Part shown: positions 38,904-48,575 of the stretch, in pieces | Layout: each line of letters starts with the position of its first letter | Position numbering within the stretch: position 1 is the first letter of the stretch | Assembly (NCBI GenBank): GCA_018004935.1 | Contig: JAGNBF010000004.1 | Span: forward strand, 1-48,703 | Source: Chloroflexota bacterium | GTDB lineage: Bacteria; Chloroflexota; Anaerolineae; Promineifilales; Promineifilaceae | DNA length: 48,703 bases | Direction: 5' to 3' | The notes under the pieces: model-generated | The model's input: only the letters and a program-made list of their open reading frames with translations | Told to the model about the DNA's origin: nothing | The model's database searches: none | Translations under genes and position numbers: made by a program

Positions 38904-39359
38904 CTACGCACTTAACTCGGACAGCACCGCTTTTACAGCCTGGGGGACTGCGGCCGCGACATCCGGGGAACACCCCTCGACAAAATCAAGCGTGTTTTCT
39001 GCCTCAATGGCAATAATCCGAATATCATCAGGCATTTTGATACCGATGGTTTTGCCGAGCTGAATAGCGGTCGGCAGATTGACATCATGCACAGACGCCG
39101 AATGTTGGGTATTGATGTCGTTAAGTTTAAGGTGATGGAGTGTTCCCGGCGGATGTGTGCCGGTGTGAATTGCATCCACAATGATCGCCTTGTCAAAACC
39201 GGCCAGGCGTTCCATCAGGCGCAAACCACCACACGTCTCCTGCCCAACTTCAATCAACATATTCGGTGGCAGTTGTTTGCCAACCAGACCGGCAATGAGT
39301 AGCCCCACCCCATCATCCCCCAAAATCGGATTGCCCAACCCCAAGATCAATGTTTTCAT
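38904..39359 (-). CDS. [NiFe]-hydrogenase maturation endopeptidase
   Basis: About 151 residues; ATG at 39359 (AGG nine bases upstream) is preferred to ATG at 39377, which would overlap the large-subunit stop. The HycI/HyaD/HoxW family mark GLGNPILGDDGVG opens the protein and supplies the nickel-sensing Glu/Asp position (first D of GDD), with a further conserved Asp in VDAIHTG and His in SVHDVNL. These proteases clip the C-terminal tail from the large subunit after nickel insertion. The substrate is evidently the adjacent large subunit, which carries a 29-residue tail after its last ligand motif. Length is typical of the family. It is the last gene of the operon. Confidence 0.93.
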   Translation of the reverse strand: MKTLILGLGNPILGDDGVGLLIAGLVGKQLPPNMLIEVGQETCGGLRLMERLAGFDKAIIVDAIHTGTHPPGTLHHLKLNDINTQHSASVHDVNLPTAIQLGKTIGIKMPDDIRIIAIEAENTLDFVEGCSPDVAAAVPQAVKAVLSELSA

Positions 39360-39369
39360 CGTTTGTCGC

Positions 39370-40878
39370 CTAATCATTCACGCCGCGACTGAGCCGTTGC
39401 ACGATGTCCCCCGCCGGATCGCGGATGACAACTTCGAGTGGCATGTGGCCGGGTAATGAATGGGTAGCACAGCCAAAGCAGGGATCATAAGCCCGGAACG
39501 CCATCTCCACCCGGTTCAGCAACCCTTCGGTGATGACTGTGCCTTTGTGGATGAGGCTCTGGGCCGCTTTTTTGATAGACATGCTGATGGGGGCGTAGTT
39601 GTTGGTTGTACCGACGATGAGATTGACGCGGGTAACGCGGCCGCGTTCGTCCGTCCAATAATGATGGGTCAACGTCCCACGCGGGGCCTCCACAATCCCA
39701 ATCCCCTCAGTCGGTTTCGCCGTCGGCACGGTGCGGAACTGATCCGAGGTGATCTCCGGGTCTGTTGCCAGTTCCACCCACCGCTCCGCCGCATACAACA
39801 TCTCAATCAGCCGCGCCCAATGGGTCGCCAGCCGATAATGCACGACTTTCCGGTCCGTCGTACTGGCATAACGGGCATCATCCGCCTCAAAGAACGATTC
39901 ATAAAACCGTTCATACTCCTCTTGCGCCAGCGGCGTCGCCATCCGATCCGCCGCATTCAGGCGCGATAGCGGCGTAGCACAATACACCCCCGAATCCCGG
40001 CCATCCACAAACCCCTTCCACCCCACTTTCTTGAGGTAAGGAAACTTCAGGTAGGTCCACGGCTCCACCCGCTCACTGATCCATTCCGGGTATTCATCCG
40101 GCGCATACTTGCCGATGCGCTCCCCATCTGGCGACATCACACTGACTTTGCCATCATAAAAGTTCACCTGATTTTGCTCATCCACCAGACCAATGTAATA
40201 CGTGCGATCAGCGTAGGTGTCCCCCAAAATCATCTCCAGGTATTGCGGATTTTTGAGCACGACATCATTGAACAACTTAAGGCTAAAGCGGGCGAAATCT
40301 ACCGCCCAGCGCCCCAACTTTTCGATTTCCTGCCGTTGTGCCTCACTGATCCCTTTGGTCAGCCCGCCGGGAATGGCCGTGCAGGGATGAACCTGCCGCC
40401 CCCCGATCATCTCGATGACGGTGTGACCAGCCTTGCGGGCCTGGATCACCTGGCTGGCGACTTCCAGCCCCACTTTGTGAATGACGCCCAGGATGTTCCG
40501 CTCGGCTACCGGCGCGTCTGGCCCCATGATGAAGTCCGGGCCACCCAACGCATAAAAATGGGTGGCATGATCGGTGACGTAGAAGGCACTGTAGAGCAGT
40601 TCGCGCAACTTTTTGGCGGTGGGGGGCGGGTCAACGTGATAAACGGCATCGGCGGCTTTCGCGGCCGCCATATGATGCGCTTCCGGGCAGACACCACAGA
40701 TGCGATTGGTCAGAATGGGCATTTCCTCGACCGGGCGGCCCACGCAAAAGCGCTCAAAGCCACGCAGTTCGGGAATTTGAAAGTAGGTGTTGGCAACCTC
40801 TCCCGCATCATCCAGGAAAATCTCAATTTTGCCGTGACCTTCCAGCCGCGTAATAGGATCAATCGTGATGCGTGGCAT
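39370..40878 (-). CDS. mvhA: [NiFe]-hydrogenase large subunit, MvhA-type (group 3)
   Basis: 502 residues; ATG at 40878 follows AAGGAG. It holds the Ni-Fe(CN)2CO active site that splits or forms H2. The N-terminal ligand motif RICGVC gives C61 and C64; the C-terminal motif DPCFGCATH gives C467 and C470, with H473 as the expected cleavage point, leaving a 29-residue tail for the protease encoded next. RLEGHGKIEI near residue 11 is the usual opening of group 3 large subunits. Neighbouring small subunit, MvhD and HdrABC place it with group 3c (MvhADG-Hdr) hydrogenases. Cytosolic, no signal. It is separated from the small-subunit gene by an SRPBCC gene, which is unusual. Confidence 0.95.
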   Translation of the reverse strand: MPRITIDPITRLEGHGKIEIFLDDAGEVANTYFQIPELRGFERFCVGRPVEEMPILTNRICGVCPEAHHMAAAKAADAVYHVDPPPTAKKLRELLYSAFYVTDHATHFYALGGPDFIMGPDAPVAERNILGVIHKVGLEVASQVIQARKAGHTVIEMIGGRQVHPCTAIPGGLTKGISEAQRQEIEKLGRWAVDFARFSLKLFNDVVLKNPQYLEMILGDTYADRTYYIGLVDEQNQVNFYDGKVSVMSPDGERIGKYAPDEYPEWISERVEPWTYLKFPYLKKVGWKGFVDGRDSGVYCATPLSRLNAADRMATPLAQEEYERFYESFFEADDARYASTTDRKVVHYRLATHWARLIEMLYAAERWVELATDPEITSDQFRTVPTAKPTEGIGIVEAPRGTLTHHYWTDERGRVTRVNLIVGTTNNYAPISMSIKKAAQSLIHKGTVITEGLLNRVEMAFRAYDPCFGCATHSLPGHMPLEVVIRDPAGDIVQRLSRGVND

Positions 40879-40900
40879 GGCTTAACTCCTTCGGAAATAG

Positions 40901-40937
40901 CCGGTCAGCTAGTCAGCCGGTCAGCACAAAAGCTGAC
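40901..40937 (+). repeat. Short repeats and hairpin upstream of mvhA
   Basis: The 105-bp gap before mvhA contains CCGGTCAGC twice (40901 and 40917) and a 6-bp hairpin GTCAGC (40920-40925) / GCTGAC (40932-40937) with a 6-base loop. It may be an mRNA processing or stabilising element between the SRPBCC and mvhA cistrons, or just replication slippage. Confidence 0.4.
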
Positions 40938-40983
40938 AAGCTGAAATGCTCATCTCCTCACCCAAGTTGATTTTGAGCGAACC

Positions 40984-41418
40984 CTAATTAATTGCTTCTG
41001 CTCTCGCCTTAAGGGCTTTGTCCATGGCTTCAAAACCGAGCTTTGAATGAGTATCAATGTCTTTTGCCTGTAAAGGAACGAACAACCCATTGAACACCTC
41101 GCGGTCAATGAAGCGAACTTGATTACTCCCCATTGGTTCAATGGTGAAGTGATGTTCTCCCCTGAAAAGGCTGGGGTGAATGACATGATATTTCCAGCAT
41201 AACTCTTTACTGGGCGTCACTGCCAAGACTTGGCAATGCAGGGTCATTTCTTTTGAGCCTGACTGGAAAGTAATATCTACTTTTTCACCTACTTGTGCCT
41301 TTCCGGACGCATGGTGAATAAAGGGATTCCATTCAGGATATTTGTCCAAATCCGTCAAAATCTGCCAGACTTGTTCAGGGGATGCTTGAATTTCAATCTC
41401 TGTCCGAAGTTCCTTCAT
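40984..41418 (-). CDS. SRPBCC/polyketide-cyclase-like domain protein
   Basis: 144 residues; ATG at 41418 is preceded by AAGGAG. The whole protein is one SRPBCC (START-like, Bet v 1 fold) domain: TEIEIQASPEQVWQILTDLDKYPEWNPFI is its standard opening (broken here at Q), followed by VGEKVDITF and ending in the long helix KLGFEAMDKALKARAEA. The fold forms a hydrophobic cavity that binds lipids or small aromatic ligands. It stands between mvhG and mvhA, 12 bp after mvhG. No role of this family in hydrogenases is known to me; it may help assembly or be a passenger. Confidence 0.9.
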   Translation of the reverse strand: MKELRTEIEIQASPEQVWQILTDLDKYPEWNPFIHHASGKAQVGEKVDITFQSGSKEMTLHCQVLAVTPSKELCWKYHVIHPSLFRGEHHFTIEPMGSNQVRFIDREVFNGLFVPLQAKDIDTHSKLGFEAMDKALKARAEAIN

Positions 41419-41430
41419 GGCCTACTCCTT

Positions 41431-42432
41431 TTATGACAACCGATGATTCCCTCCAGACGGATTTCCCCGGTGCAACAATGAACCGGCCAGGTTGAAACGG
41501 TAGAACATGCCCGCCGGGTCGGGAATGCCGTCCAGGATGCGTTCGATTTCGTTGGGGTCGTTGCTGTCTATGACCGAAGCGACGGCACTCATTAGCTTTG
41601 CGCCGTAATCCACAACGCCATCGGCCGGGCCGTAACAACCGACACAGGGCGCACCCGCCAATGGGCACAGCGCCCCGCAACCGCTACGGGTGGCCGGGCC
41701 ATTGCACAAAATGCCTTGCTCCAGGAGACAAAGGGCAGGATCGGGTTGAATCTCTTGTATACGCACAAAGGCGTTGATCTTTTTCTCATGCCGTTGGCGC
41801 AGACATTCCTCGCAGACGGTGGAGTGGCCTGCCCCCAGAACCGTGCCGGGGGGTGGCAAGGTGGCTTTGCCCTGCAAAACGGCGATCACCACATCAATCA
41901 CCGCCCCGATCTGTTTCGCTTCGGGGGGACAGCCGGGGATGTAATAATCCACGGGAACCACCTGATCCAGGGTGCGGATGATGGGATAGAACGCCGGAAT
42001 GTGGAGTTCGCCTTCGGGGACGGTGTAGCTGTCCCGCGGCCGCAATCCCTGTGGATTTTCCGTCGAAGGGCCAGCATAAACCGTATCAAAGATGGCCTCG
42101 CGGGTGGACAGGTTCGCCAGGGCCGGGATACACCCCTCACAGGCACACGAGCCAAACGCCACCAAAATCTGAGCTTTGCGCCGCAAAAGCCGGGCCATGT
42201 GCTCATTTTCGCTGTTGCGGATAGAGCCATTAAACAAACACAAGGTGATGGAGCCATCGGGCATGGCTTCCACATCTGCATACTTGGCATCCATCGCCAC
42301 CGGCCAGAAAACCACCTCAAAATTGGCATCCACAGCCAAAATTTTCTCGTGGATGTTCAAGACGGCGATCTCACAACCACCACAGGCGGCCGCCCAATAC
42401 ATGGCGAATTTGGGTTTGCCGTTCTCGTTCAT
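41431..42432 (-). CDS. mvhG: [NiFe]-hydrogenase small subunit, MvhG-type
   Basis: 333 residues. The ATG at 42432 overlaps the mvhD stop by 4 bp (ATGA type), so translation is coupled. It carries the Fe-S chain that takes electrons from the active site: proximal-cluster motif AACGGCE (C17, C20), then GSCACEGC and PGCPPE, and C-terminal cysteines CEECLRQRH, CNGPATRSGCGALCP and CVGCYGP for the medial and distal clusters. There is no Tat signal, so it is cytosolic, as in group 3. It pairs with the large subunit encoded at 39370-40878 and passes electrons to MvhD. Confidence 0.94.
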   Translation of the reverse strand: MNENGKPKFAMYWAAACGGCEIAVLNIHEKILAVDANFEVVFWPVAMDAKYADVEAMPDGSITLCLFNGSIRNSENEHMARLLRRKAQILVAFGSCACEGCIPALANLSTREAIFDTVYAGPSTENPQGLRPRDSYTVPEGELHIPAFYPIIRTLDQVVPVDYYIPGCPPEAKQIGAVIDVVIAVLQGKATLPPPGTVLGAGHSTVCEECLRQRHEKKINAFVRIQEIQPDPALCLLEQGILCNGPATRSGCGALCPLAGAPCVGCYGPADGVVDYGAKLMSAVASVIDSNDPNEIERILDGIPDPAGMFYRFNLAGSLLHRGNPSGGNHRLS

Positions 42433-42905
42433 GCGGGCACCTCCAGGAGTGAGGGCAGAGGAGTGAGCGTTGCGTTCCCATTGGTATAGGTGTTAGCACC
42501 CCAGTTTAGCGGGCCAAGCGCACGGATTTCCTCCACCATTGTCGTGATTTCCTCAGTGAGCCTGACCCCTTCGGCCGCGCTGGCCCAGACCAGTTTGATC
42601 CGTTGCGGTTCTAGCCCCATTTGGGTTAAAGTGCGCCGCAGGAGCAAGAAGCGCCGCAACGCTTTGTAATTTTGCTCCAGGTAATGGCATTCGCCGGGAT
42701 GACAGCCGGTGATTAAGACGCCATCGGCCCCGTTGGCTAAGGCTTTCAGCACAAAGGCCGGGTCTAAACGCCCCGAACACATCAGCCGGATGAGGCGAAT
42801 GTTGGGCGGGTATTTCATCCGGGCCGTACCGGCCAGGTCGGCGGCGCGATAACTACACCAGTTGCAGGTGAAGCCAATGATGACTGGCTCGAATGTTCCT
42901 TCCAT
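42429..42905 (-). CDS. mvhD: MvhD/FlpD-type hydrogenase delta subunit
   Basis: 158 residues, ATG at 42905. The family marks are CNWCSYRAADLAG near residue 15, RLMCSGRLDP near 42 and GVLITGCHPGECHY near 63, whose cysteines bind a [2Fe-2S] cluster. MvhD is the bridge that hands electrons from the hydrogenase to HdrA. Here it lies exactly between hdrA (18 bp upstream) and mvhG (4-bp overlap), the classical order. Length is normal for the stand-alone subunit. Confidence 0.94.
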   Translation of the reverse strand: MEGTFEPVIIGFTCNWCSYRAADLAGTARMKYPPNIRLIRLMCSGRLDPAFVLKALANGADGVLITGCHPGECHYLEQNYKALRRFLLLRRTLTQMGLEPQRIKLVWASAAEGVRLTEEITTMVEEIRALGPLNWGANTYTNGNATLTPLPSLLEVPA

Positions 42906-42923
42906 GATCTGCCTCCAACTTTG

Positions 42924-44975
42924 TCAGGCGGGCACGGCCACCGGCGTTAGTTTTTTGCCATTTGTCAGATTGAGTAACAGCAAACCTTCGATTTGGGCCA
43001 TGATCTGGTCGTTGCTGAATACGGTGCCGCTAATCGCTCCGGCGGGGCAGGCCGCCACACAGGTTCCGCACCCCTGGCACAGGGCCGGGTTAATTTCGGA
43101 AACCTGCTGATCCTCGTGGAAGAGGATGGCGTTGAACGGGCACAGGTTGTTGCAGATGCGACAGCCGGAGCATTTTTCGCTGGTGATGCTGGCCCGAACC
43201 GGCTCCAGAGCAATCTCTTTTTGCTGAATGCGGCTGAGAACCCGCGCGGCCGCGGCCGCGCCCTGGGCCACACTGTTGGGAATATCCTTCGGCCCCTGCA
43301 CACATCCGGCAATAAAAATGCCTTCCGTCATCGTGGCTACCGGGTCCAACTTGGGATGCCGTTCGATAAACCAACCATCGGCACTGCACGAGATACCGAA
43401 CAGCCGCGCCAACTCCTTCGCATCATGGCGTGGTTCCAGGCCCGCCGAGAGGATGACCATATCCACCGGGATACGCCGCTGTTTACCGGCCAATGTGTCC
43501 TCAACCTGAATGATGATTTTGCCCTCTTCACCGGCCAGACGGGCCGCATCGGTGACTTCGGCGACGCGGCCGCGGACAAACAACGTCCCTTCTTCTAGCA
43601 CCCGCTGGTAAAACTCATCATACGCTTTGGCCGGTGTCCGCATGTCAATGTAAAAGTTGTAGACCGTGGCGCCCGTGCGCTCCTTGACCAGATGGGCAAA
43701 TTTCAGGCTCTGCATACAGCAGATGACCGAGCAATAGTTGTTGTAGTTGCGGTCGCGGCTCCCCACACAATGAATGATGCCCACCGAGCGCGGTTCCGTA
43801 ACCCCATCACGCAGGACGATTTTGCCAGAGGTAGGGCCAGCCGCATTCGAGAGCCGCTCAAACTCCAGATTGGTAAACACATTAGCCAGACGACCATACC
43901 CATATTGCGGCACACGCCGCGCATCGAACAAATCGTAGCCGGTCGCCAGGATGATGTTGCCGACCTGGAAGGTGATAAATTGATCCTCTTGCGTGAAATC
44001 AATCGCGCCGATGGAACAGAATTTTTCACAGGCGCGGCAAGTCCCTTTTTTGAAGTAGGTGCAATTTTCACGATCCAGCACCGGGTACTTGGGCACAGCC
44101 TGGGCGAAGGGGGTGTAAATCGCCTTGCGATACCCCAATCCCGCTTCGTACTCCTCATCCACCACCTTCTGCGGGCATTTTTCCTGGCAGATGCCACAGC
44201 CGGTACACAGATCGGTGTTCACGTAACGGGCTTTCTGGCGCACCGTCACCGTGAAGTTACCCACATAACCATCCACCCGTGTGACCTCGCTCCAGGTGAG
44301 CAGGGTAATATGGGGATGGGTTCCGGCGGAAACCATGCGCGGCGTCAGGATGCAGGCGGCGCAGTCCAGGGTGGGGAAGGTTTTGTCGAATTGGGCCATG
44401 TGGCCGCCGATGGACGGCTCACGCTCGACCAGGTAGACCGGGAAGCCGCTGTCGGCAATTTCCAGGGCCGCCTGGATACCGGCGATGCCGCCCCCGACGA
44501 CCAGGGTGGCGGGGTGAATAGGGACGTGCAGGGGTTCTAATGGTTCATGTTGCCGCACCCGCTCGATACCCCCGGAAACGACTGTTTTGGCTTTTTCGGT
44601 CGCGGCCGCTTTGTCGGTATGCACCCAGGAAACCTGCTCCCGGATGGAGACCAGTTCGCACAGGTACGGGTTGAGACCGGCCCGCTGGCAGGCGATGCGA
44701 AAAGTTTGTTCGTGCAGGTGGGGTGAACAGGCGGCGACGACAACACGTGTCAGCCCCAACTGGCGGATGTCCTCTTCGATCATCTCCTGGCCGAGGCTGG
44801 AGCACATAAATTTGTAGTCGCGGGCGATGACGACGCCGCGATGTTTGAGCCGACCGGCGGCCCATTGGGCGACCTCGGCGACGTTGACGGTTCCGGCGAT
44901 GTTACTGCCGCAGTGGCAGACATAAACGCCGATCCGTTCTTCTGGGGCCTGGGGAGATGAGTTTGGCACCGTCAT
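42924..44975 (-). CDS. hdrA: Heterodisulfide reductase subunit A-like flavoprotein
   Basis: 683 residues; its ATG overlaps the hdrB stop by 4 bp. Residues 16-30 hold the HdrA opening VCHCGSNIAGTVNV. A Rossmann FAD motif follows (VVGGGIAGIQAALEIADSG, about 160-180) with IGGHMAQFDKTFPTLDC. There are four ferredoxin-like motifs: CTGCGICQEKCP, CRACEKFC, CSGCRICNNLCP and CQGCGTCVAACP. HdrA carries the FAD that, in methanogens, splits an electron pair between a low-potential ferredoxin and HdrB. The C-terminal ferredoxin-type domain and cytosolic location match. In bacteria the disulfide substrate is unknown. Five GCGGCCGC sites lie in it, two overlapping at 43246-43259. Confidence 0.95.
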   Translation of the reverse strand: MTVPNSSPQAPEERIGVYVCHCGSNIAGTVNVAEVAQWAAGRLKHRGVVIARDYKFMCSSLGQEMIEEDIRQLGLTRVVVAACSPHLHEQTFRIACQRAGLNPYLCELVSIREQVSWVHTDKAAATEKAKTVVSGGIERVRQHEPLEPLHVPIHPATLVVGGGIAGIQAALEIADSGFPVYLVEREPSIGGHMAQFDKTFPTLDCAACILTPRMVSAGTHPHITLLTWSEVTRVDGYVGNFTVTVRQKARYVNTDLCTGCGICQEKCPQKVVDEEYEAGLGYRKAIYTPFAQAVPKYPVLDRENCTYFKKGTCRACEKFCSIGAIDFTQEDQFITFQVGNIILATGYDLFDARRVPQYGYGRLANVFTNLEFERLSNAAGPTSGKIVLRDGVTEPRSVGIIHCVGSRDRNYNNYCSVICCMQSLKFAHLVKERTGATVYNFYIDMRTPAKAYDEFYQRVLEEGTLFVRGRVAEVTDAARLAGEEGKIIIQVEDTLAGKQRRIPVDMVILSAGLEPRHDAKELARLFGISCSADGWFIERHPKLDPVATMTEGIFIAGCVQGPKDIPNSVAQGAAAAARVLSRIQQKEIALEPVRASITSEKCSGCRICNNLCPFNAILFHEDQQVSEINPALCQGCGTCVAACPAGAISGTVFSNDQIMAQIEGLLLLNLTNGKKLTPVAVPA

Positions 44976-45961
44976 GGGCGCACCTCCTCATGTTCGGGCA
45001 TACGGGGCATGGGCAGGGCTTCTTTGGCGCGGCGGGGTTTGTGGGCAACGGGCGCGGCCGCGGCCTCTGCCACCGGTTCACGCAAACGAGCCAGGGCTGG
45101 GCGTGCATCCACCATCTCGCGGCCAATCCCCAACCGCTCCGGCTCCAGACCAAAGGCCAGCCCCATGAGCTGGGTGAAGAATAGCACTGGCATGTTGTAG
45201 TGGGTGCCAAAGTGACGATTGGTGTCGTTTTGGTAGGCGTCCAGGTTCAACTGGCACATGGGGCAGAGGGTGACGAGCATGTCGGCGTGATATTCTGCGG
45301 CCGCGTGGAGCAACCGTCGTATCAGTTCATAAGCCGTTGGGGGGCTGATCTGCGTCATGTGCCCGCCACAGCAATGGGTCTTGAGCGGGAAATCAATCAC
45401 CTCGGCCCCCAACATTTTCAGCAGATGATCTAGCTCATTGGGGTACTCGGGATTGCTCCAGCGGTGCTCATAGTCGGGGCGCGGCAACATACAGCCGTAA
45501 TAGGGGGCGATGCGTAACCCATTGAGCGGTTTCACCACATGCTCCCGGATAACACGCTCATCCAGATCATGCACGATGACATCCAGCAGGTGGCGAATCT
45601 CCAGTGAACCGGGATCGTAAGACAGCCCACCCGCCGCCAGCGCACCGTTCACTTTTTGGTTCAGGGTTGAACTTTCCTGCATGTAATGATCGGCTTTGCT
45701 GAGATTGACATAGCAGGCACTACACGGTGCGATCAGGGTATGGGAGCCATTGGCTTGTGCGGCCGCTAACGCCAGGTTCCTCGCAATGAGGGCATAAGCC
45801 GGAACCAGACTAATCGCCACATATTCCGTGGCCCCACAGCAGTTCCAATCATGCACTTCTTCCAAATCCAGGCCGAGCGGTTCGCAGATCGCCATCATGG
45901 AATCGAGGTAGGATCGGGAGACACGTTCCATCGAACAACCGGGATAAAGCAGATATTTCAT
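44972..45961 (-). CDS. hdrB: Heterodisulfide reductase subunit B-like protein
   Basis: 329 residues, with 4-bp overlaps at both ends. It has two CCG domains: first YPGCSMER, WNCCGATEY, PCSACYVN; second YYGCMLPRP, THCCGGHMT, CPMCQLN. In HdrB these cysteines bind the two non-cubane [4Fe-4S] clusters at which a disulfide is reduced. The fold normally ends near residue 290; here about 40 residues follow (Ala run, then HKPRRAKEALPMPRMPEHEE), a basic/proline tail not usual in the family. It works with HdrA and HdrC in the cytosol. Confidence 0.94.
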   Translation of the reverse strand: MKYLLYPGCSMERVSRSYLDSMMAICEPLGLDLEEVHDWNCCGATEYVAISLVPAYALIARNLALAAAQANGSHTLIAPCSACYVNLSKADHYMQESSTLNQKVNGALAAGGLSYDPGSLEIRHLLDVIVHDLDERVIREHVVKPLNGLRIAPYYGCMLPRPDYEHRWSNPEYPNELDHLLKMLGAEVIDFPLKTHCCGGHMTQISPPTAYELIRRLLHAAAEYHADMLVTLCPMCQLNLDAYQNDTNRHFGTHYNMPVLFFTQLMGLAFGLEPERLGIGREMVDARPALARLREPVAEAAAAPVAHKPRRAKEALPMPRMPEHEEVRP

Positions 45962-46569
45962 GGCGTCGCCTCCAGTTCCCTGGCGCGGGCCAGGATCGCT
46001 CTGAGTTCATGGACGCCCTCAATGCGGGTGGGCGTGAGGTCCATCCGTCCCCGGCTCAACATACCCAGCCCTAACGGGGCCAGCCCTGGTACACGCAGGG
46101 GAAAATGGCGAAGATAATGGCGTGTTGCCAGCCCCAATTCAAAGCTACGGCCATAATTTTCGACCAGTTGTACAAAGGTGCGGGCGAAGTCTGGGGCTGT
46201 GGCGTCCTGATATAACTTCGCCTGAATGGCCATGCTCTTGAGGGTGTACATGACATCGGTGATGTGGACGTTTTGGGGGCAGCGCACAACACAGTGATAA
46301 CAGGAGACACAAATCCAGGGGGTATTACTGCTCAAGGCTTCCTCGCGCATACCGGCCCGGATCATGGCGAAGAGCTGGCGCGGGGTATGATCCATGTCAG
46401 CCGATACGGGGCAGGAGCCGCCGCAAGTGCCACATTGGATACACATCTCCAGCCGGGAGACTCCGGCGGTAGCCGCGCTCACTTCTTCCAAAAATTGTAA
46501 GTCAGCGATAGGGGCAGGCGGTAAGGGGGGAATGGTGGCCTGCTCAGTTTCAGGGGCGAATAGGGTCAA
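45958..46569 (-). CDS. hdrC: Heterodisulfide reductase subunit C-like ferredoxin
   Basis: 203 residues from ATG at 46569, which has GGAGG nearby upstream. Two [4Fe-4S] motifs: CIQCGTCGGSCP (C43, C46, C49, C53) and CVSCYHCVVRCP (C87, C90, C93, C97). The rest is helical. HdrC relays electrons from HdrA to HdrB. No TM helices are present, so this is the soluble HdrC form rather than the membrane HdrE/DsrM kind. It is the first gene of the operon and starts about 160 bp after the regulator gene's end, a gap holding a palindrome and a candidate promoter. Confidence 0.94.
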   Translation of the reverse strand: MTLFAPETEQATIPPLPPAPIADLQFLEEVSAATAGVSRLEMCIQCGTCGGSCPVSADMDHTPRQLFAMIRAGMREEALSSNTPWICVSCYHCVVRCPQNVHITDVMYTLKSMAIQAKLYQDATAPDFARTFVQLVENYGRSFELGLATRHYLRHFPLRVPGLAPLGLGMLSRGRMDLTPTRIEGVHELRAILARARELEATP

Positions 46570-46651
46570 GTTGCACCTCCTACACCTGGGCCAGAAATCC
46601 GGGGGATGCGGCCGCGTGGATGGCTACAACGAACGGTTCCCACTTTGATAC

Positions 46652-46680
46652 AGTTTACGATGGAGCAGGGGGCGCAAGAA
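46652..46680 (-). promoter_or_regulatory. Candidate promoter for the hdr-mvh operon
   Basis: On the minus strand TTCTTG (46675-46680) and TAAACT (46652-46657) are 17 bp apart and lie about 85 bp before hdrC. The -10 box matches consensus at four of six positions; the -35 box is poor, as expected for a promoter that needs an activator. Confidence 0.3.
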
Positions 46681-46681
46681 A

Positions 46682-46717
46682 GATACAACTACATCACCCG
46701 GGTAATGTAGTTGCATC
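46682..46717. promoter_or_regulatory. 36-bp near-perfect palindrome, candidate operator
   Basis: Arms GAT-A-CAACTACAT and ATGTAGTTG-C-ATC surround the centre ACCCGGGT. Only two base pairs of the 18 mismatch. It lies directly upstream of the candidate -35 box of the hdr-mvh operon and 15 bp past the end of the PAS-LuxR gene. No T-run follows on either strand, which argues against a simple terminator. The placement suits an activator such as the adjacent LuxR-type protein. Confidence 0.6.
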
Positions 46718-46731
46718 ATTTGTGCGGAATT

Positions 46732-47436
46732 TCACAATTGATCAGGTTCGGCTTCGATCAGGTGATGTTGCAGGGCATAAAGAACGGCCTGGAGCCGACT
46801 GTGGACATGGAGTTTGCTGAGGATGTTTTGGATGTGGTTGCGGGCGGTGGTGTTGCTGATGGTTAAGGCGTCGGCGATGGTGTTGGTGTTTAACCCTTGT
46901 GCCAACAGGGTGAGGACTTCACGTTCACGGTCACTCAGTTCAATATCATCGGGGGGGGTGACTGCCTGCCACAGCTCTGTGACGATATTGTTGACCGGGG
47001 CAGGCGTTTGCAGGAGAGACAGGGCCGCAGAAACCTGGGCCAGGGCTTCTTCCTGCCGTTTCTTTTGGCTGGCATCGCGTAGGAGATGTACAACGAGGGG
47101 GGATTTTTGTTCCTGGGGTAAGGTGAGGATGCTCAAGTTGACCCAACATCGTTGGCCGGTACTGGTTTGCACCCAGAGATCGAAGCCAGGGACGGTCTGG
47201 TCGGCTTCCGCCCTGATGACGACCTGGCATTGTAAACGACAGAAGGGGCAACCTTGATCGTCCTGGCCCTGTAGGATATTGCAACAGGGGCGGCCCAGGA
47301 CTTCGGACGCGGTGTAGCCTAGAAGTTCTTGCGCGGCCGCGTTCCAAAAAAGAACCCGCTGATTTTCACCCACCACAAAAGCTCCATCAGCCGTATGGGT
47401 CAGTAGGGTGAACAGGTTAGATGGTTCGCTTTTCAT
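46732..47436 (-). CDS. PAS-domain LuxR-family transcription regulator
   Basis: 234 residues; ATG at 47436 (AGGT six bases upstream) is chosen because the longer frame to 47535 runs into a palindromic repeat. Residues about 10-130 form a PAS domain (FTLLTHTADGAFVVGENQRVLFWNAAAQ is its first half; WVNLSILTLP its end). It contains a Cys-rich insert CCNILQGQDDQGCPFCRLQC with five Cys, which could bind a metal/Fe-S cluster or act as a thiol switch. The C-terminal 65 residues are a LuxR/NarL-type HTH: ELSDREREVLTLLAQGLN, then TIADALTISNTTARNHIQNI. There is no receiver domain, so it senses directly. It lies upstream of the hdr-mvh operon on the same strand and probably controls it by redox state. 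Confidence 0.88.
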   Translation of the reverse strand: MKSEPSNLFTLLTHTADGAFVVGENQRVLFWNAAAQELLGYTASEVLGRPCCNILQGQDDQGCPFCRLQCQVVIRAEADQTVPGFDLWVQTSTGQRCWVNLSILTLPQEQKSPLVVHLLRDASQKKRQEEALAQVSAALSLLQTPAPVNNIVTELWQAVTPPDDIELSDREREVLTLLAQGLNTNTIADALTISNTTARNHIQNILSKLHVHSRLQAVLYALQHHLIEAEPDQL

Positions 47437-47486
47437 GGCACACCTGACCTGCGTTTTATAGACATTCAGAAAATCATTCTGAGTCT

Positions 47487-47546
47487 GGTTCGTCGTAACT
47501 GCTTTAGCAGTCCAGCATTGGACGACTAAAGTCATTGCTACGAACC
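47487..47546. repeat. 60-bp imperfect palindrome
   Basis: GGTTCGTCG at 47487 pairs with the complement of CTACGAACC ending at 47546, and the inner arms GCTTTAGCAGTCCA / TGGACGACTAAAGT pair with several mismatches around a short loop. It has the form of a REP-like intergenic hairpin. It overlaps the upstream extension of the PAS-LuxR frame. Confidence 0.65.
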
Positions 47547-47894: not shown

Positions 47895-48575
47895 ATGTCT
47901 GGAAATCTGCACGGTAAACGAATCCTGGTCACACAAGCGGGTGAGTTCATGGGGCCAATGCTTTGTGAACTGCTAACCGAACAGGGGGCGGAAGTGATTG
48001 CCAGTAACGACTCTTTGGTGGAACGGAACGCGGCCGCGAACCTGATCGCCGCCGCAGGTGAAGTGGACATCCTGGTCGCCAACCTGGCCCTGCCCGCCCC
48101 CACCACCCACGCCGTTGACGTGACGGACGATGAGTGGGAGCAGACTTTTGCCGTCCTGGTTGATCCGTTGCCCCGGCTGGTGCGGGCGATTGTGCCCCAG
48201 ATGAGGGAACGCGGCCGCGGTAAGATCATCGTCATCGGGAGTGCTTCTGCCCTGCGCGGCATACGCCGGACATCAACCTACAGTGCGGCACGGGGGGCAC
48301 AACTCGCCTACGTGCAGGCGATTGGGGTAGAACTTGCCCCCCACAACATCAAAGTCAACGCCATCGCCCAGAATTTCGTGGACAACCCCACCTATTTCCC
48401 GGCAGATGTTCAGCAAAATCCCCGCTTTCAGGAGCGGCTACAGCGCGAAGTGCCGCTAGGCCGTCTCGTTTCGGCGCGGGAAGATGCGGCGCTTGTCGCT
48501 TATCTGTGCAGTGATGCTGCCGATTGTTTTGTGGGGCAGGTTTTCCCGGTTTGTGGGGGATGGGTGACACGCTGA
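47895..48575 (+). CDS. Halohydrin dehalogenase-like SDR-fold protein
   Basis: 226 residues; ATG at 47895 follows GAGG at eight bases. The fold is short-chain dehydrogenase/reductase, but key residues differ. The cofactor glycine motif TGxxxGxG is replaced by T13-QAGE-F18-M-G20, which is exactly T-x4-(F/Y)-x-G. The catalytic set is S116-x12-Y129-x3-R133, with Arg where SDRs have Lys. Both patterns are the published signatures of halohydrin dehalogenases, which use Ser-Tyr-Arg and a halide pocket in place of NAD(P) to turn vicinal halohydrins into epoxides, or open epoxides with small anions. Length fits the family (about 225-255). No halogen-related gene is nearby, so the natural substrate is unknown. 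It is transcribed away from the regulator. Two GCGGCCGC sites lie inside it. Confidence 0.82.
   Translation: MSGNLHGKRILVTQAGEFMGPMLCELLTEQGAEVIASNDSLVERNAAANLIAAAGEVDILVANLALPAPTTHAVDVTDDEWEQTFAVLVDPLPRLVRAIVPQMRERGRGKIIVIGSASALRGIRRTSTYSAARGAQLAYVQAIGVELAPHNIKVNAIAQNFVDNPTYFPADVQQNPRFQERLQREVPLGRLVSAREDAALVAYLCSDAADCFVGQVFPVCGGWVTR

Follow-up and report, generated by a model that had tools for sequence, protein, structure and literature searches.

The stretch of DNA analysed here, 48,703 nucleotides in length and referred to as the window, carries an uninterrupted open reading frame (ORF) with an ATG start that is assigned to the halohydrin dehalogenases (HHDHs). Its features and the adjacent genes are listed in Table 1. 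A GAGG sequence about 10 bases 5' of the ATG is a plausible ribosome-binding sequence. Comparison with the nearest homologue gave dN of ~0.12 and dS of ~1.5 (near saturation), indicating purifying selection on the ORF. The genes to its left lie on the opposite strand. The hydrogenase and heterodisulfide-reductase-like cluster (38904–47535 when the regulator is included) encodes a NiFe large subunit, a 20-kDa subunit, FlpD, an HdrA-like protein of 683 residues, a CCG protein, a ferredoxin-type protein and a HycI protease, followed by the PAS-LuxR regulator. Positions 2–36113, also on the minus strand, encode a series of VWA-domain proteins, a metallophosphoesterase, a NACHT-like P-loop protein and a tubulin-like protein (PF13809), and include very large ORFs of 2,734 and 1,927 residues.

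Table 1. Features of the HHDH ORF and of the genes to its left.
Feature	Position	Strand	Evidence or remark
D-type halohydrin dehalogenase CDS, 226 aa	47895..48575	+	sequence, homology, tree, fold
HHDH motif 1 (T-x4-F/Y-x-G), TQAGEFMG, codons 13-20	47931..47954	+	motif match
HHDH motif 2 (S-x12-Y-x3-R), SASALRGIRRTSTYSAAR, codons 116-133	48240..48293	+	motif match; predicted catalytic Ser116, Tyr129, Arg133
Predicted anion pocket, second loop, AQNFVDNPTYFP, codons 158-169	48366..48401	+	alignment, D-type homologues
PAS-LuxR regulator	46732-47535	-	left of HHDH gene, opposite strand
Hdr/Mvh-type hydrogenase cluster	~38904-46569	-	left of HHDH gene

Between the end of the window (48703) and about position 49790, the contig (C196) contains a gap of 100 N flanked on both sides by an identical 127 bases; this duplication has the appearance of overlapping contig ends that were left unmerged. 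Past the gap, an AT-rich stretch of 578 bp (34% GC) contains a 147-residue ORF and is followed by a second, truncated copy of the 3' end of the HHDH gene (residues 172–226, 93% identical) with its flank. This 3' end and flank form a 290-bp direct repeat (94% identical).

HHDHs, which interconvert halogenated alcohols and epoxides, are diagnosed by two motif fingerprints, which have served as the basis for mining the family (PMC4989007; the definition is also given in PMC11976700), and HHDH activity was confirmed for 19 mined enzymes, a representative selection (PMC4989007). The original prediction had described both signatures as exact in the 226-residue ORF, and a motif check verified them at residues 13–20 (T13-QAGE-F18-M-G20) and 116–133 (S116, Y129 and R133). 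It had also described the NAD glycine motif as missing; the short-chain dehydrogenase/reductase (SDR) cofactor motif T[GA]xxx[GA]xG is indeed absent from the ORF. Y-x3-K is absent as well, its lysine being replaced by arginine (R133). Three ordinary SDRs encoded elsewhere in this genome could be read whole (L004–L006); all have T[GA]xxx[GA]xG and Y-x3-K and neither HHDH motif. Residues S116, Y129 and R133 are invariant among 30 aligned homologues. The AQNFVDNPTYFP loop, the counterpart of GPNYLHSEDSPYFYP in HheC, is nearly invariant in the aligned D-type homologues. In the homologue set of 82 rows, which counts the window copy, 80 keep both motifs, and the protein shares 67% sequence identity with HheD2; the motif match is thus not due to chance. 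Motif 1 is broken in two D-type homologues, L043 8001–8678 (LQADAFMG, Thr to Leu) and L075 352–1026 (TQASELMG, Phe to Leu), and motif searches would therefore miss both.

Sequences of all solved structures were ranked against the window protein. HheD2 (PDB entry 7b73; E 1.5e-96) was followed by HheD8 (8xxb; E 1.4e-86) and HheB (4zd6; E 5.8e-54). After HheB, E values drop to ~1e-30 and below, with A-type HHDHs intermixed with ordinary SDRs; the latter have E values of 1.9e-23 or worse. Pfam and NCBIfam return generic SDR families only (adh_short_C2 and adh_short), and among the NCBIfam models listed the window protein reached no cut-off. The HHDH identification of the original prediction is more specific than this library annotation. 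A tree was calculated from 80 homologues, reference sequences of types A, A2, B, C, D2 and D8 (without E, F and G) and the same-genome SDRs; the HheC and HheA2 queries match 1pwx and 1zmo letter by letter. In this tree, which was made by a quick method and has many unresolved forks, references on long branches and weakly supported inner branches, the window protein is nested among the D-type rows beside two copies from Burkholderiales MAGs, L010 and L011 (SH-aLRT 84 for the window protein with L010 and 93 with L011). L010 is the closest homologue among the matches listed, at 82% identity. Phylogeny, proposed earlier as a check, thus places the protein inside the D-type HHDHs and not among ordinary SDRs. 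D-type members listed in the literature are 57–95% identical to verified enzymes (PMC4989007), and the window protein shows both high identity to, and clustering with, the verified D-type enzymes.

An AlphaFold2 model was generated from 30 homologues (mean pLDDT 83, pTM 0.84); its last ten residues are poorly predicted (pLDDT below 50). Foldseek ranks 1–10 for the model are occupied by HheD2, HheD8, HheB and the dehalogenase 6a41. Alignment with VIA-align gave the best fold match with HheD2 (Z 30.6, rmsd 2.1, 218 residues), then HheD8 and HheB (Z 29.1–29.5), and a Z of 25.5 for the best ordinary SDR. Residues 13–20 are expected to line a nucleophile or halide pocket that replaces the TGxxxGxG cofactor loop of SDRs, and by homology an anion pocket would be formed by these residues together with residues 158–169. 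Both loops are conserved among the homologues, and HheD8 has been crystallized with bound chloride (8xxb), which lends support by homology to the predicted halide pocket of the window protein. From the solved homologues, Ser116 would hold the substrate hydroxyl or epoxide oxygen and Tyr129 would take or give the proton, its pKa being lowered by Arg133. Acid–base catalysis by Ser116, Tyr129 and Arg133 would then proceed without a cofactor, and the net reaction, which is reversible, would convert a vicinal halohydrin to an epoxide and a halide. The activity and substrate range of the window enzyme are likewise inferred.

Could the gene encode an ordinary NAD(P)-dependent short-chain dehydrogenase in which the HHDH motifs are coincidental? 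The generic family assignments are compatible with this, as is the overall fold, which HHDHs and SDRs have in common. Against it stand the absence of both classical SDR features (TGxxxGxG and Y-x3-K), and the identity of 60–67% to crystallized HHDHs compared with ~30% or less to the SDRs of its own genome; we consider this reading very unlikely. The protein has motif 1 and motif 2, lacks the SDR glycine motif and groups with HHDHs over SDRs, and HHDHs come first both by sequence and by modelled fold, which bears out the predicted halohydrin dehalogenase identity. We therefore conclude with high confidence that the gene encodes a cofactor-independent D-type HHDH of the SDR superfamily. The gene stands alone in an Anaerolineae genome, and its probable source is a D-type lineage with its centre in the Pseudomonadota, the donor and direction of transfer being inferred.

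A scan of GTDB representatives found at least 80 homologous loci with 68–82% identity, mostly in Pseudomonadota. A few of the matches listed are from Acidobacteriota, Ignavibacteriota, Thermodesulfobacteriota and Myxococcota, and two are from Chloroflexota MAGs. The total of 457 loci includes relatives down to E 1e-3 and is not equated with the number of HHDHs. A D-type gene was found in none of the 58 nearest relatives of the window genome, in two of 396 genomes of the class and in one of 400 genomes of the phylum (the window genome being counted in both of the latter). The second genome of the class is that of Anaerolineae bacterium AQU-02 (L042), which fixes the class as Anaerolineae and supports the phylum given in the original prediction. 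Both L042 and the other named Chloroflexota MAG carrier, L068, sit on short MAG contigs and could be mis-binned. The window copy and the other Chloroflexota copies fall in different regions of the tree. The rarity of Chloroflexota copies suggests horizontal acquisition from Pseudomonadota, and repeated horizontal transfer is the simplest reading. None of the papers searched describes an HHDH from Chloroflexi. The original emphasis on novelty does not hold: this is a routine member of a large, characterized subfamily, two more named Chloroflexota MAG contigs carry one, and it is the sequence alone that is 'new'. The Chloroflexota host alone is a little unusual for a D-type enzyme.

A search for plasmid carriage found one homologue, with 44% identity, on the conjugative megaplasmid pSA2 of Novosphingobium resinovorum (L092 6001–6678). 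Its tree partner is HheB, apart from the D set, and its motif 1 reads SMAELYMG, with serine replacing the first threonine. It directly follows an epoxide hydrolase family gene and is annotated only as an SDR family oxidoreductase.

The Burkholderiales origin of the 82% identical homologue and the absence of the gene from all 58 nearest relatives might also point to mis-binning, with a contig of proteobacterial origin assigned to a Chloroflexota MAG. The gene lies on a contig of 154 kb, however, and the nearby HdrA-like gene is 70–80% identical to genes in seven genomes of the same family. A further argument comes from the octamer GCGGCCGC, an iterated palindrome (the NotI site) with 34 sites in the window compared with ~0.6 expected from composition. 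The genome of ~8 Mb contains 12,040 copies (one per ~660 bases), against two for the reversed control word, and the counts in sampled relatives of the same family, order and class range from 41 to 1,959. The octamer is dense along the contig of the window and along others of this genome, with no sampled relative being similar. It occurs twice inside the HHDH ORF, which argues that the gene is resident and not a contaminant; L010 has none. Mis-binning is thus highly improbable, and the HHDH gene most likely belongs to this genome. Since it already carries the signature octamer of its host, the acquisition would have taken place long ago.

The octamer GCGGCCGC may exceed the HHDH finding in interest. 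It resembles the HIP1 element (GCGATCGC) of cyanobacteria. No report of such an iterated octamer for Chloroflexota was found in a literature search.

No halogen- or epoxide-related gene was found among the scanned neighbours within the window, and a search of the genome for the epoxide hydrolase N-terminal family PF06441, this family only, found no member. One weak match to the halogenase family PF04820 (22.1 bits) elsewhere in the genome was rejected because the family also gives matches in Escherichia coli and archaea. Conservation of the neighbourhood was examined by comparing all ORFs in the flanks (up to 8 kb) of the D-type loci and the window gene with one another. Apart from the gene's own shadow or partial ORFs, no neighbour family was common to more than seven D-type loci, and the orphan placement is therefore typical and not special to the window copy. 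The absence of halogen context noted in the original prediction thus stands for this gene but does not set it apart, as no conserved neighbour is common to the D-type loci that were compared.

These neighbourhoods bear on the natural role. The reaction of a D-type enzyme in its host might be the opening or closing of an endogenous epoxide by a small anion other than halide, dehalogenation being a side activity. The lack of both a conserved neighbour family and halogen context here is in keeping with this, as are the statements in the literature that just two HHDH genes lie in one operon with an epoxide hydrolase gene and that HHDHs may have other physiological functions (PMC4989007). No specific endogenous substrate is positively indicated, however, and those mined HHDHs with reported testing do dehalogenate (PMC4989007), so that we regard a non-halide physiology as possible but not the likelier case. 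More speculative still, and rather doubtful in our judgement, is the broader proposal that D-type HHDHs are widely transferred stand-alone enzymes that normally act on an endogenous epoxide or product of a non-halide anion, and that Anaerolineae recruited one for that purpose and not for the degradation of halogenated compounds.

HHDHs have industrial uses and their natural role is unsettled. With the D-type HHDH described here, a well sampled subtype gains a member from Chloroflexota and thereby one more biocatalyst candidate. The interest of the finding lies in the cross-phylum distribution and natural role of the D-type enzymes. Their genes seem to have moved between phyla on more than one occasion and without any conserved operon, in which case a host would benefit from the gene by itself.

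Of the known systems, HheD2 is closest to the window protein: the two align over 220 residues with zero gaps, and they share the motifs and the AQNFVDNPTYFP loop. About one third of the residues differ, including I123 and T126 of the window protein, which are Met and Ala in HheD2. HheD8 has the same motifs, and its structure is that of the triple mutant A69F/M124P/R127G, to which the window protein is 60% identical; wild-type A69, M124 and R127 correspond to A68, I123 and T126 in the window protein. As residues 123 and 126, at sites mutated in the HheD8 structure, differ from those of HheD2 and wild-type HheD8, the selectivity may also differ. The B-type enzyme HheB (~41% identity) has the same length and motif layout, but the aromatic residue of motif 1 is Tyr in place of Phe and the second pocket loop differs (AQHWTQNKEYFW). 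The HheA and HheC types (1zmo and 1pwx) share both motifs and the SDR-derived fold with the window protein, but their similarity is low (E ~1e-25 to 1e-19) and their chains are longer, with a C-terminal extension in HheC.
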